From the NCBI GenBank assembly GCA_029210725.1, contig JARGFM010000008.1:1-64000 (forward strand): 64,000 bases of DNA. Reading direction: 5' to 3'. Position 1 is the stretch's first letter. Every line of letters begins with the position of its first letter. A model generated the notes under the pieces. It ran no database searches. It saw only the letters and a list, made by a program, of their open reading frames with translations, and had not been told where the DNA came from. Both the position numbers and the translations under genes were made by a program. This document shows, piece by piece, positions 33,184 through 53,344 of the stretch. The DNA is from Bacteroidales bacterium. Its GTDB lineage: Bacteria > Bacteroidota > Bacteroidia > Bacteroidales > GCA-2748055.

Positions 33184-35022
33184 ATGCAACTGAAAGCTCT
33201 CGATATACTGATTATTTGTGCCTATCTGGCCTCCACCATTGTCATCGGCCTGGTCATGAAGAAGCGCGCCCAGAAAGACAAGACCGCCTATATGCTGGGT
33301 GGCAACAAACTGCCCTGGTATATGCTGGGACTGAGCAACGCATCGGGCATGTTCGATATATCAGGGACCATGTGGCTGGTTACCCTGGCCTTTGTTTACG
33401 GATTAAAATCCATCTAAATCCCCTGGCTCTGGCCGGTCTTTAACCAGATTTTCCTGATGGTCTTTCTCTCCATCTGGCTCAGGCGATCCAACGCCACCAC
33501 CGGAGCCGAATGGATACGGACCAGGTTTGGTTCAGGAAGAGGAGGAGTGCAATCGCACTGGATCGTCGTGGCCTTTGCGCTGATCAGCTGCCTGGGTTTC
33601 CTGACCTATGGCTTTATCGGACTGGGTAAGTTTGTGGAGATCTTTATTCCCTGGGAGCTCGTATCGCCTTATGTTCCCTTTGAGGTGGCTCCGCAATATG
33701 TGGCCCATGTGTACGGAATTGTCTTTACGCTCTTTGCCATGTTCTATGCCATCCTGGGCGGGATGAGCAGTATCGTCTGGGCCGATGTGATCCAGTACAC
33801 CATTATGACCATCTCGGCTATAGTGATCGGGGTGATCGCCATGAATGCCTTATCGGATTTTCCCCTCCTGGTGCCTGAGGGCTGGATGAATCCTTTTTTC
33901 GGGGCCCGGCTTGATCTGGACTGGACAGGGATCATCGATGAGGTGAATGAAAAGATCATCAGCGATGGTTACTCCCTCTTTGGGATCTTCTTCAGTATGA
34001 TGCTCTTCAAAGGGGTCCTGGTCAGTCTTGCCGGGCCTGCACCCAACTACGACATGCAGAAGATACTATCCACCAAATCGCCCAGGGAGGCGGCCAAGAT
34101 GTCGGGCTTTGTATCGGTGATCCTGATGCCCACCCGTTACTTTATGATCGCGGGCTTTGGGGTGCTTGGACTGCTCTTTTATGATCAACTGGACCTGATT
34201 GTGGGGAACCGGATAGACTTTGAACAGATTCTCCCCTCGGCCATCAGCCAGTTTGTGCCTGTGGGCTTTATGGGCTTGCTGCTGGCCGGACTGCTGGCTG
34301 CCTTTATGTCCACCTTTGCCGGGACCCTGAATGCGGCCCAGGCCTACATTGTCAATGATATTTACCTGAAGTACCTGCGACCCGATGCCTCCGGAAAACA
34401 GGTGAGCCGGACCAATTACCTCACCGGGATCACGGTGGTGGCCATCTCGGTGGTCTTCGGATTCTTCGCCCAGGATGTGAACAGTGTGCTGCAATGGATC
34501 GTATCCGCTCTTTGGGGGGCCTATGTGGTTTCCAATATCCTGAAGTGGTACTGGTGGCGCTTTAACGGATCGGGATTTTTCTGGGGCATGCTGGTGGGAA
34601 TCGTATCCGCATTGATCTGCAGTAAGATCTTCGACTTCCTGGATCTGTACTACTTCCCCATTATCCTGGCAGCCTCGGCCATCGCAGCCATTGCCGGCAC
34701 CTTCCTGAAACCTCCCACGGAGGAGGAGACCCTGAAGAGTTTTTATAAGAATGTGAAACCCTGGGGTTTCTGGAAGCCCATCCATGAGAAGGTAGTGGCC
34801 GAGGACCCCTCCTTTAAAGGGAATAATGATTTCTGGATGGACACCTTCAACGTCGTGGTAGGAACCATTGCCCAGACCGCCCTGGTCATCTTCCCGATCT
34901 ACATTGTACTGAAGAGGATGCTGCCGCTGGGAATCTCCATAGCCATTATTGTTATTTGTTTTATCATTATGAAAAAAACCTGGTGGGACAGGCTTCCCGG
35001 CGAAAAAGCATCAGCGGAATGA
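33184..35022 (+). pseudogene. Sodium-solute symporter (SSS family) interrupted by an in-frame ochre stop
   Basis: Read as one frame this encodes 612 residues of a typical SSS transporter. The first 78 residues (MQLKALDILIICAYLAST..., YMLGGNKLPWYMLG, SNASGMFDISGTMW) lead to YGLKSI, then TAA at 33415-33417, then in the same frame IPWLWPVFNQIFLMVFLSIWL and all remaining helices. The conserved phrase in homologues I remember is SxWIPWLWP, so a Trp codon is expected at the stop; TGG to TAA needs two changes. The rest (helices to about residue 600, LAGLLAAFMSTFAGTLNAAQ sodium-site region) looks intact. In the mannan locus this would import mannobiose. The stop overlaps the epimerase start by 4 bases (ATGA). 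Confidence 0.85.
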
Positions 35023-36236
35023 TCAGTCATGAGCTGAAGGATCTGAAGGAGGAACTTGAAAAAGAGTTACAGGATAATATTCTCTCCTGGTGGATGAGCT
35101 TTGCCCCCGACCGGGAACGGGGCGGTTTTTACGGTCACATCGATCATCTGAACCAGGTGGTGGAAGGAGCCGGGAAAGGAGCGGTACTGAATGCCCGCAT
35201 CCTCTGGACCTTTTCAGCAGCCTACGGCTTGTACCGGAGGCCGGATTACCTGGAAACGGCCCGCAGAGCCTTTGACTATATCACCCGCTTTTTCACCGAT
35301 AAGAAATACGGAGGTGTTTACTGGGAACTGGAACCCGACGGCAGTGTGCGGTCCGGCCGGAAACAGATCTATGCCATCGCTTTTACGATATACGCCATGG
35401 CCGAATATCATCTGGCCTCCGGGGACGACCGTCCCCTGAAAATTGCCAGGGGGCTCTTCCGGGATATGGAGGCCCATGCCCCGGACAGACAGCTGAATGG
35501 CTACAAAGAGGCCCTTTCCCGCGATTGGAAACCGCTGCAGGATATGCGGCTCAGTGAAAAAGACCAGAACGAAAGCAAGACCATGAACACCCACCTGCAC
35601 ATCCTGGAGGCCTATACCAATCTCTTCAGAATCTGGAAGGATGTTCAGCTGGAGAAGGCCCTGAAGAACGTATTGCGGCTGCTGCTGGACCGATTCGTTG
35701 ACCGCAGCTCCCTGCACCTGAATCTCTTCTTTGACGACCAGTGGACCCTGAGATCCTCCCTGATCTCCTATGGTCATGACATCGAGGCCAGCTGGCTCCT
35801 GCATGAAGCAGCCGGGGTACTGGAAGACCGGGAACTGATAAGGGAAACCGGACAACTGGCCGTGAGTATGGCCCGTGAAAATCTGGCTAGTCTCGATGCA
35901 GACGGGGGACTACCCTATGAGTTCTTCCCCGAAACCGGGGAGATGGATACAGACAGGCACTGGTGGCCCCAGGCCGAGGCCCTGGTGGGGTATTTCAATG
36001 CATTCCAGCTCTCGGGCGAGCATGAGTTTCTTGCCGGGGCCCTGGAAATCCGGGCTTTTATCCGGGAACATATGATCGATCCCGCCCTGGGAGAATGGTA
36101 CTGGGGAGTGGACATAAACGGGAAGCCGCAAACAGAGAAAGAAAAGGCCGGCTTCTGGAAGTGCCCCTATCATAACGGAAGGGCCTGTATGGAGATCATA
36201 CGTAGAATTGAGGAACTGAACAAATCACAAATCTAA
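35019..36236 (+). CDS. Cellobiose 2-epimerase (AGE family)
   Basis: About 405 residues, (alpha/alpha)6 barrel. Converts the reducing-end glucose or mannose of beta-1,4 disaccharides; in mannan use it turns mannobiose into mannosylglucose. Catalytic histidines are visible in the family positions: NTHLHILEAYTNLF (about 187-200), SYGHDIEASWLL (about 247-258) and KCPYHNGRACMEI (near 385), with QIYAIAFTIYAMAEY and HWWPQAEALVGYF in between. The open frame extends upstream to 34956 inside the symporter gene, but ATG at 35019 overlaps the symporter stop as ATGA and gives the usual N-terminus. The GH130 gene starts 11 bases downstream, so the pair is coupled. Confidence 0.95.
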   Translation: MISHELKDLKEELEKELQDNILSWWMSFAPDRERGGFYGHIDHLNQVVEGAGKGAVLNARILWTFSAAYGLYRRPDYLETARRAFDYITRFFTDKKYGGVYWELEPDGSVRSGRKQIYAIAFTIYAMAEYHLASGDDRPLKIARGLFRDMEAHAPDRQLNGYKEALSRDWKPLQDMRLSEKDQNESKTMNTHLHILEAYTNLFRIWKDVQLEKALKNVLRLLLDRFVDRSSLHLNLFFDDQWTLRSSLISYGHDIEASWLLHEAAGVLEDRELIRETGQLAVSMARENLASLDADGGLPYEFFPETGEMDTDRHWWPQAEALVGYFNAFQLSGEHEFLAGALEIRAFIREHMIDPALGEWYWGVDINGKPQTEKEKAGFWKCPYHNGRACMEIIRRIEELNKSQI

Positions 36237-36247
36237 ACACCTGAACC

Positions 36248-37429
36248 ATGAGTCTTTTTCAGGAACGCCAAAAGGCCATCCGCCAGCAACATGAAACTTT
36301 GCTGGCACGAGAGAACAGGGAGCTATTCAGCACAAACGGAATTTTCAGGCGCTACCAGTACCCCGTGCTGACCCGCAACCATTTCCCCCTGGAATGGCGC
36401 TTCGATTTTAACCCGGCAAGCAATCCCCGCTTTATGGAGCGGATCGGATTTAATGCAGCCTTTAACGCCGGAGCCATCCGATGGAAGGGGAAATACCTGC
36501 TGGCTGTGCGCGGAGAAGGAAACGACCGCAAATCCTTTTTTGCCATGGCCGAGAGTCCCAATGGGGTGGACAATTTCCGCTTCTGGGAGCGGCCCCTGAC
36601 CATGCCCGAAACCGGGGATCCCGACACCAACGTATATGATCTCCGGCTGACTGCCCATGAGGATGGATATATCTACGGGGTGTTCTGTACCGAGCGGAAG
36701 GATCCCGCTGCCCCCGAAGGTGACAGCAGCAGCGCCGTGGCCGCAGCCGGCATAGCCCGGACCAGGGACCTGGTGGACTGGGAACGGCTTCCCGACCTGG
36801 TCACTTATGGAGGACAACAGCGCAATGTGGTGCTCCACCCCGAATTTATCCGTGGAAAGTATGGTTTCTACACCCGTCCCCAGGATGGCTTTATCGATAC
36901 CGGTTCGGGCGGAGGGATCGCCTTCGGGCTCTCCGACTCCATGGTGCCTGCAGAGGTAAAGGAAGAAAAGATCCTGGATGCCAAGACCTACCACACCATC
37001 TACGAATTGAAAAACGGCCAGGGCCCCGCCCCCATAAAAACAGAGTCCGGCTGGCTCAACCTGGCCCACGAAGTACGCAACTGTGCAGCCGGACTTCGCT
37101 ATACCCTCTATATGTTTATGACGGCGCTGGAAGATCCCACCCGGGTCATCCACAAACCCGCCGGACTTCTGATGGGACCCCTGGGTGAGGAGCGGGTGGG
37201 AGATGTCTCCAATGTGCTCTTCTGCAATGGCTGGATCGCCGACGACGACGGCCGGGTATTTATCTACTATGCTTCGTCCGATACCCGCATGCATGTGGCC
37301 ACCTCAAGCCTGGAACAGCTGGTGGACTACTGTAAAAATACGCCGGAAGACGGGCTGCGCTCGGCTGCGTCGGTCGAGCGTATTAACAGGCTGATCGACC
37401 GGAACAAGAATTATTTAGAGTCTTTGTAA
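36248..37429 (+). CDS. GH130 4-O-beta-D-mannosyl-D-glucose phosphorylase
   Basis: 393-residue cytoplasmic five-bladed propeller enzyme that phosphorolyses mannosyl-beta-1,4-glucose to mannose-1-phosphate and glucose. Length and start (RYQYPVLTRNHFPLEWRFDFNP) match subfamily GH130_1. The proton-donor Asp lies in TGDPDTNVYDLRLTAHEDG (about 122-140); phosphate-binding Arg and His are in GGQQRNVVLHPEF (about 194-206) and YTRPQDGF; the closing YYASSDTRMHVATSS is also family-typical. It follows the 2-epimerase by 11 bases, which fits the substrate flow. Alternative specificity for mannobiose itself is less likely given the epimerase neighbour. Confidence 0.94.
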   Translation: MSLFQERQKAIRQQHETLLARENRELFSTNGIFRRYQYPVLTRNHFPLEWRFDFNPASNPRFMERIGFNAAFNAGAIRWKGKYLLAVRGEGNDRKSFFAMAESPNGVDNFRFWERPLTMPETGDPDTNVYDLRLTAHEDGYIYGVFCTERKDPAAPEGDSSSAVAAAGIARTRDLVDWERLPDLVTYGGQQRNVVLHPEFIRGKYGFYTRPQDGFIDTGSGGGIAFGLSDSMVPAEVKEEKILDAKTYHTIYELKNGQGPAPIKTESGWLNLAHEVRNCAAGLRYTLYMFMTALEDPTRVIHKPAGLLMGPLGEERVGDVSNVLFCNGWIADDDGRVFIYYASSDTRMHVATSSLEQLVDYCKNTPEDGLRSAASVERINRLIDRNKNYLESL

Positions 37430-37485
37430 AGGGCCATACGGCTATGAAGCTATCATATGGTGCATTCAAACGATAGCATCAAGCC

Positions 37486-39924
37486 CTATTTGCCCAGGAT
37501 TACCTCTACCTTATTCACACTGGCCTCCGGGCAGATTGGAACCAGAGTTCCCTCCAGCTTCTTCCCGTTAAGCAGCAATTCTCTGACACCCCCGGAGACA
37601 TGATCCGGATTGCTCACCTCGATGCGATAGGTGGCACCCCTGAATTTCCGGGTTACCGTGTAGCCGTCCCACGCCCGCGGGATCACCGGATTGATCCGCA
37701 AACCATCAAAGTCGGTCCGGATCCCCAGGATGTACTGGGAGATGACATAAAAGTTCCAGGCTGCCGTGCCGGTCAGCCAGCTGTTTTTGGCCTCCCCCGG
37801 TTTAAAGGCATCCTTCCCCGCAATCATCTGGGCATAGACGCAGGGCTCGGTCTTATGCAGCTCGCTGATCTCCTCCAGGTAAGGCGGACAAATCTTCCGG
37901 AAATACTCCCAGGCCGCATCCCCGTTCCCGTCCAGAACCTCGGCGATCATGATCCAGGGGTTGTTGTGGCAAAAGATCCCTGCATTTTCCTTATATCCTT
38001 CGGGATAGGTGCTGATCTCCCCATATTGCACATGGTACTTCGTGAACGCAGGATTGTTCAATACAATGCCATATTCGCAGTCGAGCCGTTCTTTCACCGA
38101 GTCCAGTGCCATTCTGGCGCGGCCATCTTCCAGTCCGATCCCGGCCATAATACACATGCCCTGCGATTCAATAAAGATCTTTCCCTCTTCGCTTTCCTCA
38201 CTGCCCACCTTCTCCCCGAAATGATCATAGGCCCTGATAAACCACTTTCCATCCCAGCCGTGTTCATCCACCACATTTTTCATGGCAGCGATATGCCCTG
38301 CAGCCTCCGCGGCCTCCTTGCTGAGGCCCTGTTTCTCACAGAGCCTGACAAAGGCATCGCCATAGAGCACAAACATCCCGGCAATAAAAACCGACTCGGC
38401 CACCCCACCCTCTCTGTTCTCTGTGGTCTGGAAGGCCTCCCCCGGGGTTTCCGAGAAGCAGTTCAGATTCAGGCAATCGTTCCAGTCGGCCCGCCCGATC
38501 AGGGGCAGCCCGTGAGGTCCCGGGTGATGGACCACGTGATAAAAAGAGCGCTTCAGGTGTTCAAAAAGGGTGGCCTTACTGGATTCATCGTTATCAAAGG
38601 GAACCAGCTCATCCAGAATGGCCCAGTCGCCTGTCTCCCTGATATACTCGTCTGTGGAGAGAATCAGCCAGAGCGGATCGTCATTAAAATTACTGCCCAC
38701 TGCATCGTTCCCTTTTTTGGTCAGGGGCTGGTACTGGTGGTAGGCACTCCCATCCTCGAACTGGGTGGAGGCAATGTCTATAATACGTTCCCTGGCGCGT
38801 TCCGGCACCATGTGTACAAAGCCGATCAGGTCCTGGTTGGAATCGCGGAATCCCATTCCCCGTCCGATGCCCGATTCAAAGAAGGAAGCACTACGGCTGA
38901 AGTTAAAGGTGACCATGCACTGGTACTGGTTCCAGACATTGACAGACCTGGTAAGCTCCTGTTCGGGGTGCTCCAGCCGGTATACCGAAAGCAGCTTTTC
39001 CCAGAAAGCGGCCAGTTCCTCAAAGGCCCGGTCCACATCTTCCGAAGTCCGGAAGCGGGCCATCATCTTTTCGGCCGGTTTTTTATTGATCACCTGCTTC
39101 TCCACAAACTTTTCCGCCACAGGCACCTCCACATATCCCAGAACAAAAACCAGTTCCTTCTGCTGGCACGGCTCCAGCTCCACTTTCAGGTGATGGGAGG
39201 CAGCAGGCGACCAGCCATGGGCGCGGGAGTTTCGTGAACGGCATTCCATCACCGCACCGGGAGCATCAAAGCCATTGTAGAGGCCCAGAAAAGCATCCCG
39301 GTCGCTATCCAGTCCGTCCACGTTTTCATTGACCGTATAAAAGGCATAATGATCGCGGTGTTCCCGGTATTCGGTCTTGTGATAAATGGTCGAACCTTCG
39401 ATCTCCACCTGGCCCGTGGAAAAGTTACGCTGAAAGTTGGTGTTATCATCCAGGGCATCCCAGAGGCACCACTCCACAAAAGAGAAGAGCGAAAAGGAGC
39501 GCTTCCTCCTGCTGTGATTGGTGAGTTTCACCTTTTGTACCTCCCCATGATAGCCCAGCGGTACCAGATAGAGCACCTCGGCCTCCAGCTGGTCGACTTC
39601 CCCGCTAATCCGGGTATAGCCCATTCCATGCCGGCACTCATAACGGTCCAGTTCTGTTTTAACCGGCTTCCATCCTGGCGACCACACTTTTCCGTTCTCA
39701 TTGATATAGAAATATTTACCTCCATCATCCACCGGCACATTGTTGTACCTGTAACGGGTGATCCTTCTCAGCCGCGCATCCTTATAGAAGCTGTATCCGC
39801 CGGCTGTATGGGTGACAATGGAAAAGAACTCCTCGCATCCCAGGTAGTTGATTCATGGATACGGGGTTCGCGGATTGGTGATTACATATTCTCTTTTTTG
39901 ATCATCAAAATGTCCGAATTTCAT
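37486..39924 (-). pseudogene. GH94 cellobiose-phosphorylase-like gene with in-frame opal stop near the start
   Basis: Full-length frame of 812 codons. The natural start is ATG at 39924 ([18 protein letters not shown]); after RTPYP a TGA at 39853-39855 interrupts, followed in frame by [21 protein letters not shown]94 enzymes have a conserved PWINYLG here, so TGA replaces Trp by a single base change. The remaining 750 residues are intact: glycan-binding sandwich, linker, and the (alpha/alpha)6 barrel with [13 protein letters not shown], the catalytic Asp in [12 protein letters not shown] and [11 protein letters not shown]. An internal GTG at 39738 could restart translation without the first 60 residues. 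Function if made: phosphorolysis of cellobiose or related beta-glucosides, fitting glucomannan breakdown. Convergent with the GH130 operon. Confidence 0.85.
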
Positions 39925-40562: not shown

Positions 40563-41855
40563 ATGGACAGAAGAAATTTTATCGGAAAATCGGCCCTGGC
40601 CGCCGGAGCGTTTACCATTATACCCGAAAAGGTTTTGGCCGGAGAACAGAAAAAAAGTATGGCACCCAGTGACCGGGTGAACCTGGGATATATCGGGGTC
40701 GGGAAACAGAGCCTCGGACTGCTGAGAAGCCTGGGCGAATGCCCGGAGACCATGGTTCTGGCTGCCTGTGATGTGGACAAACTAAAACTGAATCGCTTTA
40801 AGGGGGAGGCAGAAAAAATGAATGCCTCCAAGCTGAATGGCGGAAGCCAGATCGTGGATACCTATGAGAATTACCGGGAGCTCCTGGAGAGGAAAGACAT
40901 TGATGCGGTGGTGATTGCCACTCCCGACCACTGGCACGCGATGATTGCCATTGATGCAGCCAGAGCGGGCAAAGATATTTATTGCGAAAAGCCCATGGCC
41001 CTCACCGTGGCGGAAGGCAGGGCCATGGTGAATGCCACCAGGAAATACGACCGGGTTTTCCAGACCGGGAACATGCAGCGATCCTGGAGAAACTTCAGGC
41101 ATGCCTGTGAGATGGTTTCCAACGGCTACATCGGGGATATCAGGGAGATCAATGTAAGTGTGGGGGATCCGGATATGGCCGTTGAACTTCCGGCAGAACC
41201 GGTTCCGGAATATCTGAACTGGGATCTCTGGGTGGGGCCATCCCTGTTCCGGAACTATCACCCGGAGCTTGCCCCTCCCATTGAGGATGACGGATGGGCC
41301 AACTGGAGGGCCTACCGGGGTTTTGGAGGGGGCCAGGTCACCGACTGGGGGGCTCATATGTTTGATATCGCACAGTGGGCCCTGGGCATGGATCAATCCG
41401 GCCCGGTGGAATTTTTACCGCCCAAAGAGAGAGGCAGCAGGGGAATGAAAATGATCTACGCCAATGGCGTTGTCATGAATCATACGGACTGGGGAAGCTT
41501 TAATGCGGTACAGTTCCTGGGCTCAGAGGGAAACATTGAGGTGAGCCGCGGTTTTTACCGCTCCGACATCGAAGGCCTCACCGAACTTGAATTGAAGGAC
41601 AGTGATACCCCTCTTTATAAGAGTGATAACCACTACCAGGACTGGATAGATGCCATCAAAAAGCGCACCCGTCCGGTATCCGATGTGGAGACGGGGCACC
41701 GGACCGCTTCCCTGTGTAACATTATAAACATCGGCTACGCCCTGGAACGGCCTCTGAAATGGAAACCGGCACATGAAAAATTCATTGACGATGATGCTGC
41801 CAACAGCATGCTTGGCAGGCCCTTCCGGGGAGAATGGGACTTTAACAACATCTAA
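40563..41855 (+). CDS. Tat-exported Gfo/Idh/MocA-family oxidoreductase
   Basis: 430 residues. Tat-type signal MDRRNFIGKSALAAGAFTI with twin arginine, cleaved near VLAG. Rossmann start NLGYIGVGKQSLGLL (about 39-53) binds NAD(P); EKPMALTVAEG (about 143-153) carries the conserved Lys; a C-terminal beta-sheet domain holds GQVTDWGAHMFDIAQWALG with the family's catalytic-type His. Probably oxidises or reduces a sugar in the periplasm with tightly bound cofactor, as for glycoside 3-oxidoreductases. It precedes the damaged S9 peptidase by 15 bases, and GH5 after that, so the three may form one operon. Substrate unknown. Confidence 0.88.
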   Translation: MDRRNFIGKSALAAGAFTIIPEKVLAGEQKKSMAPSDRVNLGYIGVGKQSLGLLRSLGECPETMVLAACDVDKLKLNRFKGEAEKMNASKLNGGSQIVDTYENYRELLERKDIDAVVIATPDHWHAMIAIDAARAGKDIYCEKPMALTVAEGRAMVNATRKYDRVFQTGNMQRSWRNFRHACEMVSNGYIGDIREINVSVGDPDMAVELPAEPVPEYLNWDLWVGPSLFRNYHPELAPPIEDDGWANWRAYRGFGGGQVTDWGAHMFDIAQWALGMDQSGPVEFLPPKERGSRGMKMIYANGVVMNHTDWGSFNAVQFLGSEGNIEVSRGFYRSDIEGLTELELKDSDTPLYKSDNHYQDWIDAIKKRTRPVSDVETGHRTASLCNIINIGYALERPLKWKPAHEKFIDDDAANSMLGRPFRGEWDFNNI

Positions 41856-43965: not shown

Positions 43966-45009
43966 ATGAACGGTAAGTTCCGCAGCATGTTGATGCTCAG
44001 CCTGATTCTTGCTTTATCCCTGCATTCATCCTGCAGGCAGAACAGCCCGCCCACGGAGCAGGACGACAAAGCCATGGACTGGATCAGGATCGAGGGCCAT
44101 ACATTTGTAAATGAATCGGGCGAACCCATGATTTTCCATGGAGTGAATATCCGGGACCCGCATAATCTGGAAGAAGATGGGCACTGGACAAAGTCTCATT
44201 TTGAAAAGGCCAGAGCCTGGGGGGCAGACGTGATCCGCTTACCCGTCCATCCACCCTCCTGGAGAACCCGGGGAGAAGAGGGCTACATGGCCCTGATTGA
44301 CCAGGCAGTGGAGTGGGCCCGGGAGCTGGAGCTCTACCTGATCCTTGACTGGCACTCCATCGGAAATCTGAAAATGGAGTTGTTCCAGCACGAGATGTAT
44401 ATCACCTCTTTTGAAGAGACCAGCTCTTTCTGGAAAGCTGTTTCCGGGAGGTATGCCGATGAACCGGTCATTCTCCTGTATGAGCTCTACAACGAACCCA
44501 CCATTTCCGGAGAGCATTTCGGGGAAATGAGCTGGCAGGAGTGGAAAGGCATCAACGAAGAGCTTATCAAAGTGATCAGGTCCAACCATCCCCGGTCGCT
44601 GATCGGAGTGGCAGGGTTTAACTGGGCCAATGACCTGACTCCCATCAGGGAGGCTCCAATAGATGCTCCGGGAATCTCCTACATCAGCCATCCCTACCCG
44701 GAAAAAAGGGAAGCTCCCTGGGTAGAAGAATGGGAAGCAGACTGGGGCTATGTAGCAGAAACATACCCGGTGTTCCTGACCGAAATCGGATTTGCACTAC
44801 CTGAGGAAGAAGGGGTGCATATCCCGGTCCACGGAGATGAGGTATACGGACAGGCCCTCGTGGATTATACGAAAGAAAAGGGCATCTCCTGGGTAGTCTG
44901 GTGTTTTGATCCCGACTGGTCCCCTTACATGTTTACCGACTGGGACTACACCCCCACCCGGCAGGGCACTTTTTTCAGAAAGGTGATGACCGCTTACCCG
45001 GGGCATTAG
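43966..45009 (+). CDS. GH5-family endoglycanase, lipoprotein
   Basis: 347 residues with a lipoprotein signal (LALSLHSSC, then RQNSPP). Barrel from about residue 40: IFHGVNIRDPHNLEEDGHW, VIRLPVHPPSW, LYLILDWHSIGN, acid/base Glu in LLYELYNEPTISG (about 170-182), SHPYPEK and nucleophile Glu in VFLTEIGFAL (about 267-276). GH5 includes cellulases and mannanases; the subfamily cannot be fixed by eye. It lies 29 bases after the S9 peptidase and ends with a 4-base convergent overlap with the isomerase gene. Fits outer-membrane or periplasmic glycan cleavage. Confidence 0.9.
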   Translation: MNGKFRSMLMLSLILALSLHSSCRQNSPPTEQDDKAMDWIRIEGHTFVNESGEPMIFHGVNIRDPHNLEEDGHWTKSHFEKARAWGADVIRLPVHPPSWRTRGEEGYMALIDQAVEWARELELYLILDWHSIGNLKMELFQHEMYITSFEETSSFWKAVSGRYADEPVILLYELYNEPTISGEHFGEMSWQEWKGINEELIKVIRSNHPRSLIGVAGFNWANDLTPIREAPIDAPGISYISHPYPEKREAPWVEEWEADWGYVAETYPVFLTEIGFALPEEEGVHIPVHGDEVYGQALVDYTKEKGISWVVWCFDPDWSPYMFTDWDYTPTRQGTFFRKVMTAYPGH

Positions 45010-45911
45010 AGCCCCAGGTATCTGGTCAGCAGCTCCTTGCCCTGCCGGATGGCGTCCCTGCCCGACGACTCAATCCCGTACCACCCGGTATATCCCATTT
45101 TTTTTGACATCCGGATCATACGGCCCGTCAGCTCTTCGGTGGGCTGGTTGCGGTACGACATTCCCCTGGCATAGGGCAACATCTTTTCCAGGTAGGCCAG
45201 GTTATCAAACTCGGGACCCGGCTGCCGCCAGTCCGGATAGGATCCAAAGAGGGGATGGTCGACCGCTTCAAACAGCTTTTCCATCCAGGCCGGATCGTTG
45301 GAGACTCCCCCGTGGTTCTCAATCACCACATTGATTCCGGCCCCGGAGGCATATTCCAGCAGCATCCGGTAGGAATCTGCAGCCCATCCCAGGTTCTCTT
45401 CCGGAGTGGACTCCTCCAGTCCCCTGCAGTTGGTCCGAATGGTATGGCAGCCCAGGTAATGAGCCACATCGATCCATTTCCGGTGATTGATCCCGTATTG
45501 CTTTCTTACCTTTTCCTCGGGAGAACAGGGATCCCCTTCTGCATCGACCATAATCAGCACCATGGTCACCCCGTACTCGTCAGCATTCTTCTTCAGCTGG
45601 TTCAGGTAATTCATATGGGGAACCTCAAAGAGGGTGTTCACAAACTCTATCCCGTTAATATCAAACTCCTCCCGGGCCAGTTTTGGAAAATCGAGCGTGG
45701 TCCACAGGCCCTGCCGGATCTCATCCACCAGCGACCATTGGGCAATCGAAATATCATCCCTTTCGGGCATTACCGGCAAAATAATGGCCGGTTCACTTTT
45801 TGCTGTCCCGTCCGTATCTCCTTGAGATACACAGGATCCCAGCAAGGAAGGAGCCACCACTCCGGCGGCCCCTATTCCCACTGATTTCTCAATAAAAGAT
45901 CTTCTTTTCAT
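45006..45911 (-). CDS. Exported sugar isomerase/epimerase-like TIM-barrel protein
   Basis: 301 residues. The N-terminus MKRRSFIEKSVGIGAAGVV has twin arginine and leads to a lipobox-like SLLGSC, so it is exported and perhaps lipid-anchored. The xylose-isomerase-like/AP-endonuclease-2 barrel shows metal ligands in ALFE/NGIEFVNTLFEV, VIENHGGVSND and the end SRGRD-like GYTGWYGIESSGRDAI. Such barrels, annotated as sugar phosphate isomerase/epimerase, accompany Gfo/Idh and DUF1080 genes in keto-sugar pathways, where they act on unphosphorylated keto-glycosides or their products. The upstream Gfo/Idh gene ends 1 base before its start, so the two are coupled. Confidence 0.87.
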   Translation of the reverse strand: MKRRSFIEKSVGIGAAGVVAPSLLGSCVSQGDTDGTAKSEPAIILPVMPERDDISIAQWSLVDEIRQGLWTTLDFPKLAREEFDINGIEFVNTLFEVPHMNYLNQLKKNADEYGVTMVLIMVDAEGDPCSPEEKVRKQYGINHRKWIDVAHYLGCHTIRTNCRGLEESTPEENLGWAADSYRMLLEYASGAGINVVIENHGGVSNDPAWMEKLFEAVDHPLFGSYPDWRQPGPEFDNLAYLEKMLPYARGMSYRNQPTEELTGRMIRMSKKMGYTGWYGIESSGRDAIRQGKELLTRYLGL

Positions 45912-45912
45912 C

Positions 45913-47424
45913 TTACAACTCCCATCCTTTCCGGTAAGTCCTGGTTAAAAATTCATTGGCATCGGGTTCATTGGTAATCTCCACCTTCTCCGGATCGTAA
46001 TCCACCTTCGTACCGGCTCTCATTGCCACCCCGCCCAGCAGAATGGTCTGGGTCACGGGTGCGGCCTTCAGGAAGGTTCCGGGCGACTCTTCTCCCTTCT
46101 TAAAGGCATCGATCCAGTCGCGATCGGAGCGGATGGTCTCTTCTTTGGGGGGCTTACCGGAACCGGTGAGTTCGACCATCCGTTTTTCGGGAATAAGCAC
46201 GGGACTCTCGCCCCTGAACCCCGAAAGGATCTTTCCCTTGTCTCCCACAAACATCATTCCCTCCCGTGGCAGGTCCTTGCCATCGGCCTCCAGTTCTTCA
46301 GGTGTGAAGGGTTTCATCCCGCCATCGTACCAGAAAAGCTTAAAGGCCGGCAGGGTCTCCTGCTGCGGGAAATCGAACTTCACCATGTTGGAATAGGGAA
46401 AGGCCACGTTGTTACGTACTCCCCTGCTCACGTGGTTGACCACTTCACAGGTGGTGGTCCCGTAGGCCCGTGCACTCAGGGGCGCCGTATGGATCCCCAT
46501 CTGCAGGAACATGGGCCAGAGGCTGTAGTGCCCCATATCGGCAATGGCTCCGGCTCCAAAATCATACCAGCCCCGGAAAACCGCATGGGTATAGTTGGGA
46601 TGGTAGGGCCGGTCGGGTTCCGGTCCCAGCCAGAGGTCCCAGTCAAATCCATCGGGAACGGGCATCTCCTCTTCAGGATTCGCGGTCCACTGCGGCCAGA
46701 CGGGACGGTTCGACCAGTTATGTATTTCTGTAAGAATACCGATATGCCCCTGTTTGATCCACTCCCTGGCCACATCCAGTCCGCTTCTCTGACTCCAGGC
46801 CAGCAGGTGTGATCCCACACCCGTGGTTCTGGCCGTATCAATGGTCAGCAGGGCCTCTTTCATCCGGTTGGCAATGGGCTTGTGAATCACCACGGGCTTC
46901 CCCTTTTTCAAAGAAGCAATGGAAACTGCAGCATGCAAATGGTCAGGGGTCATGATCTTCACCACATCCACATCGGTCTCTTTCTCCAGCAGCTCCCTGA
47001 AATCTATATAGGCCTTGCAGCCCTTGTATGTGCTCTGTCCGCTCTTCATGGCATAGTACTTATCCACCAGTTCCTTGCCCAGGTCACGCCCTCCGGGAAT
47101 ACCATCCAGGGCACTCCCCCATTCAGGATCTTCCAGGGTGCGGCGCATGATGTTGCGGATGCCATTCAGCGACCAGTCCACGTAGTCGGTGGTGAACTTA
47201 TTCGGATCGCAAACAGAAGTGATCTGAATATCCTCCTCCCTGAGCAGCGGGGCCATCTCACGAATCCCCTGGGTTCCGCATCCGATATAGGCGATATTCA
47301 GCTTATCGCTTGGAGCCGTATAGCCCGCTCCTCCCAGGACATGCCTGGGAATAATCGTAAAGGCAGCGGCAGCGGCAGTTGTACCCAAAAACTCTCTGCG
47401 GGTGATTTTTGGTGATTTTTTCAT
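45913..47424 (-). CDS. Tat-exported Gfo/Idh/MocA oxidoreductase (large type)
   Basis: 503 residues. Tat signal ITRREFLGTTAAAAAFTIIP, cleaved near VLGG. NAD(P)-binding start NIAYIGCGTQGIREM (about 45-59), MTPDHLHAAVSIASLKKGKP and VIHKPIANRMKEALLTI give the Rossmann and hinge parts; AGAIADMGHYSLWPMFLQMG carries the conserved catalytic-region His. The C-terminal 60 residues contain the IRSDRDWIDAFKKGEESPG segment common to exported Bacteroidota members. It forms a 1-base-spaced pair with the TIM-barrel isomerase and is divergent from another Gfo/Idh gene across 236 bases. Probable periplasmic sugar oxidoreductase, perhaps glucoside 3-dehydrogenase; substrate not proven. Confidence 0.9.
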   Translation of the reverse strand: MKKSPKITRREFLGTTAAAAAFTIIPRHVLGGAGYTAPSDKLNIAYIGCGTQGIREMAPLLREEDIQITSVCDPNKFTTDYVDWSLNGIRNIMRRTLEDPEWGSALDGIPGGRDLGKELVDKYYAMKSGQSTYKGCKAYIDFRELLEKETDVDVVKIMTPDHLHAAVSIASLKKGKPVVIHKPIANRMKEALLTIDTARTTGVGSHLLAWSQRSGLDVAREWIKQGHIGILTEIHNWSNRPVWPQWTANPEEEMPVPDGFDWDLWLGPEPDRPYHPNYTHAVFRGWYDFGAGAIADMGHYSLWPMFLQMGIHTAPLSARAYGTTTCEVVNHVSRGVRNNVAFPYSNMVKFDFPQQETLPAFKLFWYDGGMKPFTPEELEADGKDLPREGMMFVGDKGKILSGFRGESPVLIPEKRMVELTGSGKPPKEETIRSDRDWIDAFKKGEESPGTFLKAAPVTQTILLGGVAMRAGTKVDYDPEKVEITNEPDANEFLTRTYRKGWEL

Positions 47425-47660
47425 GATGGAAGTTTAGTTAGGAACACTAAATTTAGGAAATTACTCTGTAGATGCCCCCTGATCAGCCGGAAAAAGTGAC
47501 TTTGTGTAAAAAATACATAAAAGGAATGCTGATTTGCTGATAAAGGGGCAGAGATCGCCCAATAAAGGATAGCTGAGAGTTTTAACTATGGATTTTTATT
47601 ACTAAATTGGAGGGCGATTATTCAACTTAGACAAAATACCTAACTTAAATCAAGACTATT

Positions 47661-49142
47661 ATGAGTAAAGAAAAAAAAGGTGGGGTTTCCCGTAGGGCTT
47701 TTATGGGCACTACCGCTGCTGCAACTGCAGGTTTCACCATTCTGCCCAGTAAGGTGATCAGTGGAATGGGTCACGTTGCCCCCAGCGACAAGATGAACAT
47801 TGCTGCGGTAGGTATTGGAGGTATGGGTGCTTCCAACCTCCGGAACATCAAGGATCAGAATATTGTAGCTCTCTGCGATGTAGACTGGAAATATGCTGAT
47901 GGCACATTTAAGAGATATCCCGATGCCAAAAAATTCTGGGACTGGAGAAAGATGTATGATAAGATGGGCAAAGATATCGATGGAGTTATCGTAGCCACTG
48001 CCGACCATACCCACGCACTTATCGCTGCCCACGGGATGACCATGAATAAGCACATGTACGTCCAGAAGCCTCTGACACACTCCGTGTATGAGTCGCGCTT
48101 GCTGACCAACCTGGCCGACAAGCACCAGCTGGCCACCTCCATGGGTAACCAGGGATCGTCCGGCGAAGGGGTCAACCTGGTTTGTGAATGGCTGGCCAAT
48201 GGCGAGATCGGAGAAGTAACCAAAGTAGAGGCCTTTACCGACCGGCCCATCTGGCCCCAGGGTCTGAATATACCCGAAAAAGTAGATCCGGTTCCGGATA
48301 CCCTCAACTGGGATCTCTTTACCGGTCCGGCCGAAATGAAAGACTTTAATGAGATTTACCACCCCTGGAACTGGCGTGGCTGGTGGGACTATGGAACAGG
48401 GGCCCTGGGCGATATGGCCTGCCATATCCTGCATCCGGTTTTCGTTGGTCTGAAACTGACCTACCCAAGCAAGGTACAGGCCAGTTCTACCCTCCTGCTG
48501 ACCGAATGCGCCCCCAATGCACAAATGGTGAAGCTGACTTATCCCGCCAGGGACAATATGCCCAGGGTAGCTCTGCCCGAGGTCGAAGTTACCTGGTATG
48601 ATGGTGGTCTGCAGCCCATGAAGCCGGCAGGCTGGCCCGATGGCAAGGACATGAACGATCAGGGTGGTGGCGTGTTGTTCCACGGAACCAAGGATACCCT
48701 GGTTTGTGGTTGCTACGGTGTGAACCCCTGGTTGCTTTCCGGAAGGGTGCCCGATGCTCCCAAATTCAGGCGCCGCGTAGAGGCCAGCCATGAAATGGAC
48801 TGGGTCAGGGCCTGCAAGGAGAGTCCCGAAAACCGGGTTCAGACCGCATCCCCGTTCAGCGAAGCCGGTCCATTCAACGAGATGGTGGTTATGGGCGTGA
48901 ATGCAGTTCGCCTCCAGGGCCTGAACAAGGAGCTGGAATGGGATGGTGCAAAGATGGAGTTCACCAATATCAGCGATAGTGAAGAGCTGCGCATGTGCAT
49001 CAAGGACGGATTTGAGATCCACGACGGACACCCGACCTTCAAGAAGGACTGGACCGATAAATTCTCAGCCAGGGAGTTCTCCAGGGAACTGGTGAAACAC
49101 ACCCCGAGAGAAGGTGGCTGGGAGCTTCCCCCCATGCCTTAA
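47661..49142 (+). CDS. Tat-exported Gfo/Idh/MocA oxidoreductase paired with DUF1080 gene
   Basis: 493 residues. Tat signal VSRRAFMGTTAAATAGFTIL, cleaved near VISG. Cofactor-binding start NIAAVGIGGMGASNLRN (about 44-60), VALCDVDWKYADGTF, TADHTHALIAAHGM and YVQKPLTHSVYESRLL (conserved Lys of the EKP-type motif, here QKP). GTGALGDMACHILHPVF holds the conserved His region. Long substrate domain with DWVRACKESPENRV near the end. Divergent from the Gfo/Idh-isomerase pair and followed 75 bases later by the DUF1080 gene, with a strong hairpin between them. Likely periplasmic 3-oxidation of glycosides; inference from neighbourhood. Sense codons and composition are ordinary. Confidence 0.91.
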   Translation: MSKEKKGGVSRRAFMGTTAAATAGFTILPSKVISGMGHVAPSDKMNIAAVGIGGMGASNLRNIKDQNIVALCDVDWKYADGTFKRYPDAKKFWDWRKMYDKMGKDIDGVIVATADHTHALIAAHGMTMNKHMYVQKPLTHSVYESRLLTNLADKHQLATSMGNQGSSGEGVNLVCEWLANGEIGEVTKVEAFTDRPIWPQGLNIPEKVDPVPDTLNWDLFTGPAEMKDFNEIYHPWNWRGWWDYGTGALGDMACHILHPVFVGLKLTYPSKVQASSTLLLTECAPNAQMVKLTYPARDNMPRVALPEVEVTWYDGGLQPMKPAGWPDGKDMNDQGGGVLFHGTKDTLVCGCYGVNPWLLSGRVPDAPKFRRRVEASHEMDWVRACKESPENRVQTASPFSEAGPFNEMVVMGVNAVRLQGLNKELEWDGAKMEFTNISDSEELRMCIKDGFEIHDGHPTFKKDWTDKFSAREFSRELVKHTPREGGWELPPMP

Positions 49143-49164
49143 GCAAGTTGAATTAAAAATCAAT

Positions 49165-49198
49165 CAACTATCCTTGCAGCAAGCTGCGGGGATAGTTG
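49165..49198. repeat. Long perfect hairpin between Gfo/Idh and DUF1080 genes
   Basis: CAACTATCC TT GCAGC, loop AA, GCTGC GG GGATAGTTG: 16 pairs including two G-T wobbles. It shares the GCAGC/GCTGC core with the hairpins at 32998 and 33054. No T-run directly follows, so more likely an mRNA-stabilising or REP-like element than a terminator. Confidence 0.7.
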
Positions 49199-49217
49199 GT
49201 TTTAAAATCGAAATCTG

Positions 49218-50015
49218 ATGAAACAACTATTTTATCTGTTTATTGCTGTTTTATTTCTGGGACTGTCGGCCTGTAACTCTGCCCCTAAAAAGGGAAAGGC
49301 TGCTGATGAGGAAAGCACTGAAGTAACGACCGGAGAAGTTGCTGCCATCAATACCCTTACAGAACAGGAAAAAACAGAGGGCTGGATCCTGATGTTCGAT
49401 GGCGAAACCACCGAGGGCTGGCGTGAATACGATGCCGGAGTCTTCCCCGATACCGGCTGGTACATCGAAGATGGTGCCCTGGTATGTGAAAACTCCGGGA
49501 ACGGCGAGGCCGGATTTGGTGGTGACATCATTTACGACAAACAGTTTACCAACTTCCATTTCAAAGTGGACTGGATGATTGAAGAGGGAGGTAACTCCGG
49601 GATCTTCTATCTTGCGCAGGAATTGCCGGGCAAGAAGATCTGGTATACAGCTCCGGAATATCAGATCCTGGATAACTTTGGAAACCACATCGACAATACC
49701 CTGGGTGAAAACGGAAACCGGAGGGCCGGAAGTCTTTACGACCTGATCCCCCCCGATCCGCAGAATGCCAAAGGGCCCATGGAGTGGAACTCCGCGGAGA
49801 TTATCTCCTATGAAGGAACCATCGTCTACCGGATGAATGGAGAGAACACCATTGAGTTTCACCTCTGGACCGATGAGTGGAAAGAGATGATCGCCAATAG
49901 CAAGTTCCCGGAATTTAATCCTGATTTTGCAGATGTGGCCAAGACAGGCTATATCGGTCTCCAGGACCACGGCCATGCGGTCTGGTTCAGGAATATCAAG
50001 ATCAAGGAGTTGTAA
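49218..50015 (+). CDS. DUF1080 (3-keto-disaccharide hydrolase-like) lipoprotein
   Basis: 265 residues. Lipoprotein signal with lipobox FLGLSAC then NSAPKKG. A single beta-jelly-roll of the DUF1080/concanavalin-like family: WILMFDGETTEGWREYD (about 60-76), YIEDGALVCENSG, FHFKVDWMIEEGGNSGIFY (about 115-133), YQILDN and a closing GYIGLQDHGHAVWFRNIKIKEL. The family is now known to cleave 3-keto-glycosides in bacterial keto-sugar pathways (hydrolysis or 1,2-elimination). Its gene is downstream of a Tat-exported Gfo/Idh gene, supporting that role here. Probably anchored facing the periplasm. Confidence 0.9.
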   Translation: MKQLFYLFIAVLFLGLSACNSAPKKGKAADEESTEVTTGEVAAINTLTEQEKTEGWILMFDGETTEGWREYDAGVFPDTGWYIEDGALVCENSGNGEAGFGGDIIYDKQFTNFHFKVDWMIEEGGNSGIFYLAQELPGKKIWYTAPEYQILDNFGNHIDNTLGENGNRRAGSLYDLIPPDPQNAKGPMEWNSAEIISYEGTIVYRMNGENTIEFHLWTDEWKEMIANSKFPEFNPDFADVAKTGYIGLQDHGHAVWFRNIKIKEL

Positions 50016-50414: not shown

Positions 50415-50858
50415 ATGGAACAGCTTATCAAGCAAAGTGTAGGGATTGACGTCTCAAAAGAAAGCTTTACTGCATGTGTCTGTACTCATTACAAGACAGG
50501 GGAAGAACGACTTAGTGAAGTTATTGAGTTCAAAAATCTAAAATCAGGTTTTAATCAGCTCATCACGTGGAGTCGAAAGATCACTGTACCATCATTAGAA
50601 GTGACTTTCGTTATGGAGGCGACAGGCGTTTACTATGAAAACTTGGCACATCATCTCTACAATCTTAAACAACCAGTTTGTGTCCTACTTCCCAACAAAG
50701 TCAGCCACTTTGCAAAAAGTCTCAATGTAAAAACGAAAACAGACAAGGTGGATGCCCGTGTCATTGCACGAATGGGAGCAGAAAGGAAATTATCAAACTG
50801 GGTGCCACCACACCCGCTATTTAAACAACTTAAAGATCTGAAGTTCTCCTTCGTTTAG
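50415..50858 (+). pseudogene. IS110-family transposase, C-terminal half missing
   Basis: 147 residues. The N-terminal DEDD RuvC-like domain is clear: SVGIDVSKESFTACVC with the first Asp (about 10), VMEATGVYYENLAHHLY with the Glu (about 74), and KTKTDKVDARVIARMG with the two Asp (about 115-120). Family proteins are about 310-400 residues with a second, serine-containing Tnp_20 domain; here the frame ends after FKQLKDLKFSFV, so that domain is absent and the element cannot move by itself. Downstream AATATCC...GGATATT (about 50867-50891) forms a small inverted repeat. Lies between the DUF1080 gene and the convergent NagB-like gene, so the insertion did not obviously break a neighbour. Confidence 0.85.
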
Positions 50859-50928: not shown

Positions 50929-53250
50929 CTAGAGTACCACTCCCTCCATGGATTTTTCCAGTTCACGGGCGTTGGTCAGAAATTCATCCAGTTTCATCTC
51001 CTTGAAATAGAGCAGTCCGTGGGTGGACCTTATCCGGGGACTATCGCTCTGGTAGAAGGTGTTTTTTCCAACCAGCAACTGGATCTGTTTCAGCTGTTCC
51101 ACCCAGATGCGTTTGGTCAGATCGCTGAATTTACCATCGTGCTGGTAGGATGGGAAGGAGGCATCCACCTGGCTCAGGTAGCTGTGGGTAAAGGCATTGT
51201 CCATAACTCCCATGGCATTCAGCGAGACCGGAACGATCACATTGGCCTCAGCCGGATGAAAGCGGTACCACACATTCCTGTATCCCCATACCCTGAGCCC
51301 GGATAAATCCTCCTCCCTGCTCCACTTACGAAGGGCTTCTGCAATCACCTGCAGCACCTTGTAATGGGTGTCGGGGCCGCTTCCCTCGGGGTCAAAGGCC
51401 AGGCTTACCACGGTGGGTTTGATCTCCCTGAGCTTTTCCAGGATGGGTTCCACGTCCCTTTCCAGCTTGGGTTGCTCGGTAAATACCTCGCCGGTGTAAA
51501 AGCCCAGCCTGAGGTGATGTACGTTTTTAGTCTCAATTCCAAAATAGGCCCAGACCAGTTCCTCCTCGAACTCCCGGATCATCCCCTTCAGCTTCTGGAT
51601 ATCGGGCTGATTGACCTCCCCGTCGTAGCTCTTGTTCAGGATATGAATGATGTTGTTGATCTCATCGCGCAGCTGGTATTTGCTCTTCACCTTATACAGG
51701 CCCACCATATCACGAACGATCCGGTGAGCCAGGCCCCTCCGGAGTTCAAAATCCTCTCCCGAGGCCACCTTCAGCAAGTAATGGTTCACATCCTTGTCCC
51801 GCTTGAATTTATATCCCGTTTCAAAGAAATCCGGATAATTGACCATCTGCATCATTCCGTTGTCGAGGAAGTAGCGGGTATCTTCCAGGGCTTTGATCAC
51901 AAAATCGTTGGTAACAGCGGTAAACCCGGAGGTGAGCACCGAAAAGTAATTGGTATTGGTCTCGTTCCGCATCAACCGGTGAATATGAGGGTTGATCCCC
52001 AGCATGATATCATCGTGGTGGGGTCCCGTATGGTAATAGGTCTGATTTTTTTCGGCTACCATCCCCTTTTCAAACTTTGCCATGGTGGAGCTGATCACCC
52101 CGGAAACCGTATCCTCATTCAAACCGGGTATCTGCCTGCAATAACGGTCCCCTTTCAAATCGCTCATGGTAAGATGATGCCCGTACTTGTTCAATTTAGC
52201 ACAAAGATCGATCACCGCACGGTCGGTCTTGGCCTGGGTCCATTCCCCCTCCTTATATAAGGCATCCACGGAAGCCTGGAGACTGGCAGCCGCTCCGGTG
52301 GTCAGGTAAAAACGGGCATGATCCAGTTTTGACAGCACGCTGGCCGGGTAAAGCACCGAAGGTTCATTCTCCAGGGCCTCCCTGACCATGGGAGCCTTGG
52401 CCTCTCCGGCGGCAAAGATGAGAGCCACTGCATCCGGATTATGGGTAATGGTATCCAGTCCGATGGTAATGACCAGGCGGTTCCGGGAGATTTCGATTCC
52501 TCCCAGATCCCCCGCAGCCACGGCCTGTGTTTCAAAATTGGTTTCGGTAAGCCGGGTGGTGGAATGATGGTCGGATCCCCGGACATTAAAAGCGATATGA
52601 CCGTCCGGTCCGATCCCTCCCAGGAAAAATCCTATTCCTCCTTTGTCCCGGATCTGTTTTTCATAATTCGTGCACCAGTCATCGATCAGGAAGATCGATT
52701 CCTGCTGTAATTTTTCGGTCTGACTCTTAGGGGCCCGGTACCTCAGCGAGAGATCCACCCGGCTGTCGGGAAAAACTTCTCTGAAATGTTTGCCTTCTGC
52801 CAGAAGAATCTCATCTGAATTAATCAGCAGGGCATTTTTCGGATCCAGGCCAAATCCCTGGATGTAATATTTTTTCACATAGTTGTAAAAACTGTTATGC
52901 TGTTCGGAGCTGATGGGATAAAACTCATCGATCTGAACAAAATGAAGATCCTTCAGGGAGGGCTTTTTTAAATCCGCAACGCCATATTTGCCTCTCAGCT
53001 CCTTAATTTTCTGCTCCTCCCAGTTTTCCAGAAGGTGAGTGGTCCACTTGATAAAATACTCCGGCGTTTTCCCGGTGGGCAGACTGATCACTCCCCCGGG
53101 ATTCTCACTGACCCACTCCAGAAAACGAAGGGCGGTAAGCAGGCCCATCAAGGGGAAATTCTCCACCACGATATAGGGGATCCTGGTGCGGATCAACGCT
53201 TCGCCGGAGATTTTATAAAAGGCTTTTTCAACTTGGGACTTGAACTGCAT
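50929..53250 (-). CDS. Glucosamine-6-phosphate deaminase fused to a PIG-L deacetylase-like domain
   Basis: 773 residues with two domains. N-terminal NagB-like domain, about 25-320: ISLPTGKTPEYFIKW, FVQIDEFYPISSEQHNSF, GGIGPDGHIAFNVRGSDHHS (the phosphate and catalytic loop) and AGEAKAPMVREAL. C-terminal PIG-L/LmbE-type domain, about 395-640: TGPHHDDIMLGINPHIHRL carries the metal-binding HxDD motif, and FDPEGSGPDTHYKVLQ the second His. The fusion is known in Bacteroidota NagB annotation. It suggests deacetylation and deamination of GlcNAc-6-phosphate-like substrates in one polypeptide. The frame opens at a TTG at 53274; ATG at 53250 (MQFKSQVEKAF) is the natural start. Confidence 0.9.
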   Translation of the reverse strand: MQFKSQVEKAFYKISGEALIRTRIPYIVVENFPLMGLLTALRFLEWVSENPGGVISLPTGKTPEYFIKWTTHLLENWEEQKIKELRGKYGVADLKKPSLKDLHFVQIDEFYPISSEQHNSFYNYVKKYYIQGFGLDPKNALLINSDEILLAEGKHFREVFPDSRVDLSLRYRAPKSQTEKLQQESIFLIDDWCTNYEKQIRDKGGIGFFLGGIGPDGHIAFNVRGSDHHSTTRLTETNFETQAVAAGDLGGIEISRNRLVITIGLDTITHNPDAVALIFAAGEAKAPMVREALENEPSVLYPASVLSKLDHARFYLTTGAAASLQASVDALYKEGEWTQAKTDRAVIDLCAKLNKYGHHLTMSDLKGDRYCRQIPGLNEDTVSGVISSTMAKFEKGMVAEKNQTYYHTGPHHDDIMLGINPHIHRLMRNETNTNYFSVLTSGFTAVTNDFVIKALEDTRYFLDNGMMQMVNYPDFFETGYKFKRDKDVNHYLLKVASGEDFELRRGLAHRIVRDMVGLYKVKSKYQLRDEINNIIHILNKSYDGEVNQPDIQKLKGMIREFEEELVWAYFGIETKNVHHLRLGFYTGEVFTEQPKLERDVEPILEKLREIKPTVVSLAFDPEGSGPDTHYKVLQVIAEALRKWSREEDLSGLRVWGYRNVWYRFHPAEANVIVPVSLNAMGVMDNAFTHSYLSQVDASFPSYQHDGKFSDLTKRIWVEQLKQIQLLVGKNTFYQSDSPRIRSTHGLLYFKEMKLDEFLTNARELEKSMEGVVL

Positions 53251-53344
53251 GATGTTGGAATTTAATATTTTCAATAATTACAGGAGAAAGGCAAAAGTAT
53301 TCATTTTGCACGTCTTTATCAATGAGACAAAGAAAAAATGACAG

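Follow-up and report, generated by a model that had tools for sequence, protein, structure and literature searches.

The stretch of DNA analysed here (the window, 64,000 nucleotides in length) comes from a Bacteroidales bacterium. Between positions 45006 and 50015 the list of its open reading frames (ORFs) contains four ORFs, two on each strand, which diverge from a promoter region of 236 bp (47425..47660, with no strand assigned), and both the span and the outward-facing layout are exactly those given in the original prediction. On the plus strand, Gfo1 (47661..49142), a Tat-type glycoside 3-dehydrogenase of the BT_2158/AL3 family, is followed by a lipoprotein of the DUF1080 or 3-keto-disaccharide hydrolase family (49218..50015). 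On the minus strand, Gfo2 (45913..47424) is another Gfo/Idh oxidoreductase with a Tat-type leader; the motifs HKP and DMGHY set its subfamily apart, and the second gene in its unit encodes an isomerase-like TIM barrel (45006..45911) with a twin-arginine (RR) leader and a lipobox. Gfo1 and Gfo2 both match the Pfam families PF19051 and PF01408.

Comparison with characterised proteins gave clear assignments for the two products of the plus strand. Gfo1 scores 867.8 bits against NF058561, the equivalog model for the BT_2158 glycoside 3-dehydrogenase, and so passes its cut-off of 750; it matches 8tdf in the PDB (E 1.4e-226), and the titles of its best PDB matches name the Alistipes glucoside-3-dehydrogenase AL3, in one case with trehalose bound. 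It retains the KP lysine (VQKPLTH) and the histidine of the DMACH motif (GDMACHI), which we take to be the catalytic residues; the histidine of DMAxH is found in all 23 alignment rows other than Gfo2. The DUF1080 protein passes the gathering cut-off of PF06439, '3-keto-disaccharide hydrolase' (167.6 bits against 26.8), and matches 4hxc, 8v31 and 8tda in the PDB at E values of about 1e-60. Since both proteins fall in described 3-keto-glycoside families, they likely bring about cleavage of a sugar bond outside the cytoplasm after its oxidation, as judged from their sequences. A DUF1080 ORF was likewise present in 16 of 20 sampled stretches around BT_2158-type genes; 49 genomes had a match over the cut-off, and the stretches came from 20 of them, mostly the best-scoring ones, and so are not a random draw. 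The genome of the window holds 24 matches to PF06439 and two BT_2158 genes over the cut-off, so redundancy is likely; in one study, deletions of BT2157 and BT2158 left growth on raffinose-family sugars unimpaired (PMC11501099).

Gfo2 is a different matter. Its score against NF058561 is 280.8 bits, below the cut-off of 750, and NF058563, the family of the disaccharide 3-dehydrogenase BT_2159, is absent from its family matches at E 0.001 or better. An AlphaFold2 model of Gfo2 (mean pLDDT 86) has its best fold match in AL3 (8tdf, Z 36.6), which is also its nearest relative in sequence. The best 80 of 224 relatives of Gfo2, some of them from the window's own genus, carry record titles from Bacteroidota, Planctomycetota, Calditrichaceae and KSB1. 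In the alignment used for residue counts (79 of these 80 loci plus the window, locus L085 being left out as it is split into two ORFs), K182, D296 and Y300 are invariant in 80/80 rows. Tyr300 aligns with the DMACH histidine of Gfo1, and HKP stands in every one of the 80 rows where the BT_2158 type has E/QKP. Gfo/Idh enzymes with tyrosine at the position of the catalytic histidine do exist. Loss of the residues for 3-oxidation had been named beforehand as a finding that would count against a 3-keto-glycoside pathway, and it applies in part to Gfo2, by the change of histidine to tyrosine, and not to Gfo1. The assignment of the whole locus to such a pathway is accordingly supported in part: it is right for Gfo1 and the DUF1080 protein and stays a proposal for Gfo2 and the TIM barrel, oxidation at C3 by Gfo2 being left unsupported by the low BT_2158 score, the lack of a BT_2159 match and Tyr300.

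The TIM barrel scores 61.9 bits against PF01261, and its only relative in the PDB by phmmer is 4ovx, titled a xylose isomerase domain protein. Its fold matches include DgpB-C, the 3-keto-glucoside 4-epimerase YcjR and 3-epimerases; comparison with YcjR by hhalign gave a probability of 5.8, that is, no detectable sequence similarity, and the likeness is one of fold only. An ORF matching it occurs in 46 of the best 80 Gfo2 loci, as the next gene in 43, although 17 of the 46 matches are remote (105-132 bits), mostly from Algoriphagus and its kin. Residues were counted in 42 of the 46 matching loci plus the window, one match below 90 bits and three ORFs of at most 250 amino acids having been dropped. 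The metal site of TIM-barrel sugar epimerases has the ligands Glu-Asp-His-Glu. E198, H200, D227 and E281 are present in 43/43 rows, while position 256, a histidine in 4ovx, is Gln in 27, Lys in 12, Arg in two and Asn in two, and never His. Together with Tyr300 of Gfo2, the absence of this fourth ligand could mean a different chemistry. The Gfo2-TIM pair has no named function in the databases examined.

All four ORFs begin with what appear to be export-type leaders, as had been foreseen, three of them of the twin-arginine type. Inspected by eye, the motifs are SRRAFMG in Gfo1, TRREFLG in Gfo2 and KRRSFIEK in the TIM barrel, where a lipobox (LLGSC) follows; the DUF1080 leader has a lipobox (LSAC) without RR. 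The twin arginine is conserved in Gfo2, at position 9 in 79/80 rows and at position 10 in 80/80, and at position 4 of the TIM barrel in 41/43 rows, which places it beyond chance; the lipobox of the TIM barrel is not general, a strict pattern matching only the window and locus L009 among the 43 rows. There is one tatC gene in the genome. Export of the locus proteins is thus predicted from motif and conservation. The idea that export of every part is in itself a new feature was rejected: BT2158 is already termed periplasmic in PMC11300592, and an RR leader is present on 20 of 21 BT_2158-type ORFs in the 20 sampled stretches. Export is usual in the BT_2158-type pathway.

The reading that we prefer, to which we give a probability of roughly 50%, is that the locus specifies a periplasmic, redox-neutral 3-keto-glycoside pathway made up of two modules. 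Free NAD is not expected in the periplasm. Gfo1 would fold with a nicotinamide cofactor in the cytoplasm, be exported by Tat and oxidise the C3 hydroxyl of a glycoside; the 3-keto-glycoside would be cleaved by the DUF1080 lipoprotein, probably through elimination and hydration, to give a 3-keto-sugar along with the aglycone or the other sugar. The TIM-barrel lipoprotein would work at the acidified C-H beside the ketone, in an epimerisation or an elimination, and Gfo2 would give the hydride back, converting keto-sugar into ordinary sugar. Electron flow would be closed in this way, and a respiratory acceptor unneeded. For Gfo1 and the DUF1080 protein we infer these roles from homology to tested proteins; those proposed for the TIM barrel and Gfo2 draw on fold, gene order and the analogous gene sets of Agrobacterium and E. 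coli. The locus is neighboured by GH26, GH5, GH130, GH94 and 2-epimerase-family genes (a mannan-type set), and because of these beta-manno- or beta-gluco-oligosaccharides are suggested as likely substrates, the link to mannan coming from the neighbourhood only.

Linkage of the two units is not the general rule. Among the 76 Gfo2 relatives (of the best 80 of 224) with at least 700 bp upstream, Gfo2 stands head-to-head with Gfo1 in just one, L009, which by length and coordinates is a contig of G009, a genome of the same genus as the window; a Gfo1-type ORF is absent from all the other loci among the best 80. Likewise, none of the 20 sampled BT_2158 stretches contains a Gfo2-type ORF or a TIM ORF of the window's type, and the idea of a single four-gene locus conserved across Bacteroidota was rejected on these grounds. 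The cleavage half is a kind of gene cluster already known; Gfo2-TIM is a separate, widespread module. It is possible, if somewhat doubtful, that the units are functionally unrelated neighbours, a BT_2158-DUF1080 module for disaccharides and a Gfo2-TIM pair for some other compound, which came together in an ancestor of the genus; the sparse linkage favours this, as does genome G015, where about 22 kb separate the two. Within the genus, however, the units are linked: 7 of the 11 resolvable genomes have them head-to-head with the gap conserved and Gfo2 77-89% identical to that of the window, which speaks against unrelated functions. The window-type TIM is missing from G006 and G007, which, like the sparse linkage and the arrangement in G015, tells against the two-module pathway.

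Within the gap, a block of about 60 bp near the start of Gfo1 is conserved in the genus. The motif CCTAACTWAA is mirrored, with one copy on each side; the window holds two exact copies where 0.18 would be expected, a count of two being reached in 1 of 100 shuffles; its 11-base form has four copies in the genome, against 15 for a reversed control. The mirrored motif hints only weakly at an operator or leader common to both units. A scan of the gap for sigma-70 promoters and terminators found none, though promoters of the Bacteroidota kind are outside what it can detect.

Among the closest known systems is the Bacteroides BT2156-BT2160 or Alistipes AL pathway, which likewise combines a BT_2158/AL3-type dehydrogenase bearing a Tat leader with a DUF1080 protein. 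The Bacteroides operon, which Nasseri is said to have described in 2024, reportedly also includes genes for a TIM-barrel protein and a further Gfo/Idh protein. Here, in contrast, the second Gfo lacks a BT_2159 match, the TIM barrel lies in the Gfo2 unit and is unlike the kind found near the sampled BT_2158 genes, and there are two divergent units in place of one operon. Gfo2 might yet be a glycoside 3-dehydrogenase too, with a glycoside range unlike that of Gfo1, and the TIM barrel its dedicated eliminase, giving two parallel routes of cleavage. We consider this unlikely: the proximity of Gfo2 to AL3 in sequence and model, the DgpB-C-like fold of the TIM barrel and the report in a review (PMC12385236) that either BT2156 or BT2157 can partner BT2158 in vitro all agree with it, but the invariant changes from His to Tyr300 and from E/QKP to HKP, and the missing BT_2159 family match, do not.

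For the preferred two-module pathway, the GlycDH-OGE-HYD-Gfo operon of Agrobacterium offers a parallel by description, in that oxidoreductases and isomerase-family proteins carry out oxidation, elimination, hydration and reduction; elimination falls to one isomerase-family protein, hydration is ascribed on preliminary evidence to another, and the reduction of 3-keto-glucose to a Gfo oxidoreductase; the main text does not use the term 'DUF1080' (PMC10628242). In E. coli K-12, the ycjQRS cluster likewise encodes an epimerase, glycoside phosphorylases and two dehydrogenases of the Gfo/Idh type; genes for an ABC transporter lie beside it, and none of its listed features bears the name DUF1080. Periplasmic epimerisation after the manner of YcjQRS, in which Gfo1 would oxidise C3, the TIM barrel epimerise C2 or C4 and Gfo2 reduce the product, so that mannosides, or other epimers, would become glucosides either ahead of cleavage or in its place, would suit the complement of two Gfo/Idh proteins and one TIM barrel, the fold likeness to YcjR and 3-epimerases and the adjoining mannan-type genes, but is improbable in view of the TIM sequence, which is unlike that of YcjR, the site without its ligand histidine, and a DUF1080 gene next to Gfo1 that points to cleavage.

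Enzymes of the type of Zymomonas GFOR and the Caulobacter aldose-aldose oxidoreductase have a Lys/Tyr catalytic pair, to which the invariant Lys182 and Tyr300 of Gfo2 may correspond, and a non-dissociating NADP; they are not known to have a TIM or DUF1080 partner. They too are Gfo/Idh proteins with a Tat leader, and the Caulobacter enzyme is described as cycling a tightly bound NADP between two sugars, though it is shorter than Gfo2 (366 amino acids) and oxidises aldoses to lactones (PMC4628093, PMC9795676). A more specific version of the two-module pathway, which we advance very tentatively as rather unlikely in all its particulars, is that Gfo2, which would have a Lys/Tyr site and keep its cofactor bound, reduces the keto-sugars produced by the BT_2158-DUF1080 pair while C2 is epimerised by the TIM barrel; mannosides and glucosides alike would then be cleaved and yielded as ordinary hexoses without an electron acceptor, and the redox cycle of 3-keto-sugar breakdown in the periplasm would be closed by an exported module not described before. 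Should Gfo2 and the TIM barrel prove, outside the cytoplasm, to recycle electrons or to act as keto-sugar epimerases, this would bear on how nicotinamide enzymes turn over in the periplasm, and a function could be assigned to a gene pair that recurs.

The four reading frames of the original prediction lie exactly where they were placed: a PF01261 TIM-barrel protein (TIM, 45006-45911) and a Gfo/Idh oxidoreductase (Gfo2, 45913-47424) on the reverse strand, and a second such oxidoreductase (Gfo1, 47661-49142; both PF19051/PF01408) and a PF06439 protein (DUF1080, 49218-50015) on the forward strand, with 236 bp between the divergent pairs. A candidate export signal was likewise found on every component, as claimed: a twin-arginine-type (RR) motif at three N-termini and a lipobox at two, TIM bearing both. 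The genome contains a TatC gene, and the motifs and their conservation argue for export of the locus proteins.

Membership of 3-keto-sugar pathway families, also proposed, is supported for Gfo1 and DUF1080 but not for Gfo2. Gfo1 scores 867.8 bits against the NCBIfam profile BT_2158 'glycoside 3-dehydrogenase' (cut-off 750), and its best solved relatives, 8tdf and 8tdh, are titled Alistipes sp. glucoside-3-dehydrogenase AL3, with trehalose in the title of 8tdh; DUF1080 matched several solved relatives at E ~1e-60. (The window's 3.8-Mb genome, G000, has 24 PF06439 matches, two open frames carrying two each.) A BT_2158 gene above the cut-off occurs in 49 of 198 genomes of the order. In stretches around 20 of these 49, mostly the best-scoring, a DUF1080 ORF was present in 16 and a TIM-type ORF in nine, the latter belonging to two kinds other than the window's (both query TIM proteins being PF01261), while a window-type TIM or Gfo2-type ORF was present in none; 20 of the 21 BT_2158-type ORFs in the sampled stretches have an RR leader. 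The Gfo1-DUF1080 half is thus ordinary, the exported 3-keto-glycoside module being known already. Passages of PMC11300592 call BT2158 a periplasmic glycoside 3-dehydrogenase, whose deletion is reported to prevent growth on trehalose, leucrose or palatinose; in those of PMC9007349, BT2157 is named as a 3-ketotrehalose hydrolase and another DUF1080 protein is proposed to cleave 3'-ketolactose in the periplasm; and a review has glucosinolate conversion in vitro requiring BT2158 plus BT2156 or BT2157 (PMC12385236). A contrary report found no growth defect on raffinose-family sugars after BT2157 or BT2158 deletion (PMC11501099).

Gfo2 is 28% identical to Gfo1, scores below the BT_2158 cut-off and has no BT_2159 match in the NCBIfam profile comparison. 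Its AlphaFold2 model (mean pLDDT 86) best matches AL3 (Z 36.6, rmsd 2.8, 393 residues). Among 80 Gfo2 sequences (the window's and 79 relatives), K182, D296 and Y300 never vary, and H181, likewise in 80/80, occupies a position held by Gln or Glu in Gfo1-type proteins. The residue aligned to Y300 is a His both in Gfo1 (that of DMACH) and in E. coli YcjS; the adjoining residue 299 varies (73 His, 4 Thr, 3 Ile). Lys and Tyr are used here by some Gfo/Idh enzymes, namely GFOR, aldose-aldose oxidoreductase and KijD10. A KijD10 Y186F structure is among the fold matches of the model. The Caulobacter aldose-aldose oxidoreductase is described, in part of PMC9795676, as cycling tightly bound NADP between two sugars, and both it and GFOR have Tat signals according to a passage of PMC4628093. 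Because of these Lys/Tyr enzymes, the bound, cycling NADP and the Tat signals, a self-recycling or reducing role for Gfo2 is plausible by analogy.

The nearest fold to the TIM model (mean pLDDT 86.4) is that of the xylose isomerase domain protein 4ovx, followed by those of DgpB-C, Art22, UlaE, tagatose 3-epimerase and YcjR; sequence comparison with YcjR gave no similarity. All 43 aligned sequences share E198, H200, D227 and E281, and the position equivalent to a 4ovx His is His in 0/43.

Among the best 80 of 224 Gfo2 relatives in named genomes, 46 loci have a window-TIM-like ORF (17 remote, at 105-132 bits), the next gene downstream in 43. A further TIM-type family, PF01261 in the four scanned of its 13 members, occurs in 13 of these 80, two shared with the 46, so that one or other is found in 57. 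In 13 of the 80 (L028, L029, L038 and L039 among them) the other strand carries a molybdopterin-binding hydroxylase-type gene (one member scanned) between one and six genes past Gfo2. Of the 76 of these loci that extend 700 bp or more upstream, one (L009) has Gfo1 head-to-head.

Within the window's genus, 13 of 18 genomes (G000-G017) have a Gfo2 match of at least 70% identity. Gfo1 is head-to-head with it in seven (G000, G002, G003, G005, G006, G007 and G009, of which G003 and G009 have it truncated where the contig stops) and absent beside it in four (G004, G014, G015 and, judged from an N-terminal piece, G016); in G008 and G013 the contig ends too early to judge. In G015 a Gfo1-DUF1080 pair lies ~22 kb from Gfo2. 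G006 and G007 lack the window-type TIM after Gfo2; the genes that come next in G006 are RraA-like, thioredoxin-like and a different PF01261 gene. Such a set, with another TIM gene, also takes the TIM place after Gfo2 in locus L122 (6743-9607). The locus is thus made of two movable units that came together in this genus. In an alignment of the gap (47425-47660) over the seven genomes, about 60 bp next to Gfo1 form a conserved block and CCTAAC-like motifs occur on each side, partly through common descent, since Gfo2 is 77-89% identical among them.

The genes immediately upstream encode GH26, a sodium-solute symporter, a 2-epimerase family member, GH130 and GH94 (31927-39738, an apparent beta-mannan/glucomannan cluster), a third RR-leader Gfo/Idh protein (40563-41855, PF19051), a prolyl oligopeptidase-type peptidase and GH5; this neighbourhood suggests beta-mannan or glucomannan breakdown. 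Gfo ORFs similar to the third lie near the same genes in L009, L119 and L120. Beyond DUF1080 are a short IS110-type transposase ORF (50415-50858, 147 aa; a DEDD domain match alone, under the IS110 equivalog cut-off) and a protein of 781 aa (50929-53274) that contains a NagB-like region and matches PIG-L weakly. A similar gene adjoins Gfo1-DUF1080 in L120 and L122, and the ORF beside that pair in L187, at 773 aa, equals such genes in length.

Family membership, leader motifs, gene order and conservation are established for the locus. From tested homologues, Gfo1 would oxidise C3 and DUF1080 would cleave; by analogy, TIM might isomerise or eliminate and Gfo2 might reduce, so closing electron flow. 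The closest analogy is an Agrobacterium set, whose Gfo oxidoreductase is described in part of PMC10628242 as reducing 3-keto-glucose. The Gfo2-TIM module, which has no name of its own in the NCBIfam, Pfam or PDB results, is the part of the locus that deserves experiment.
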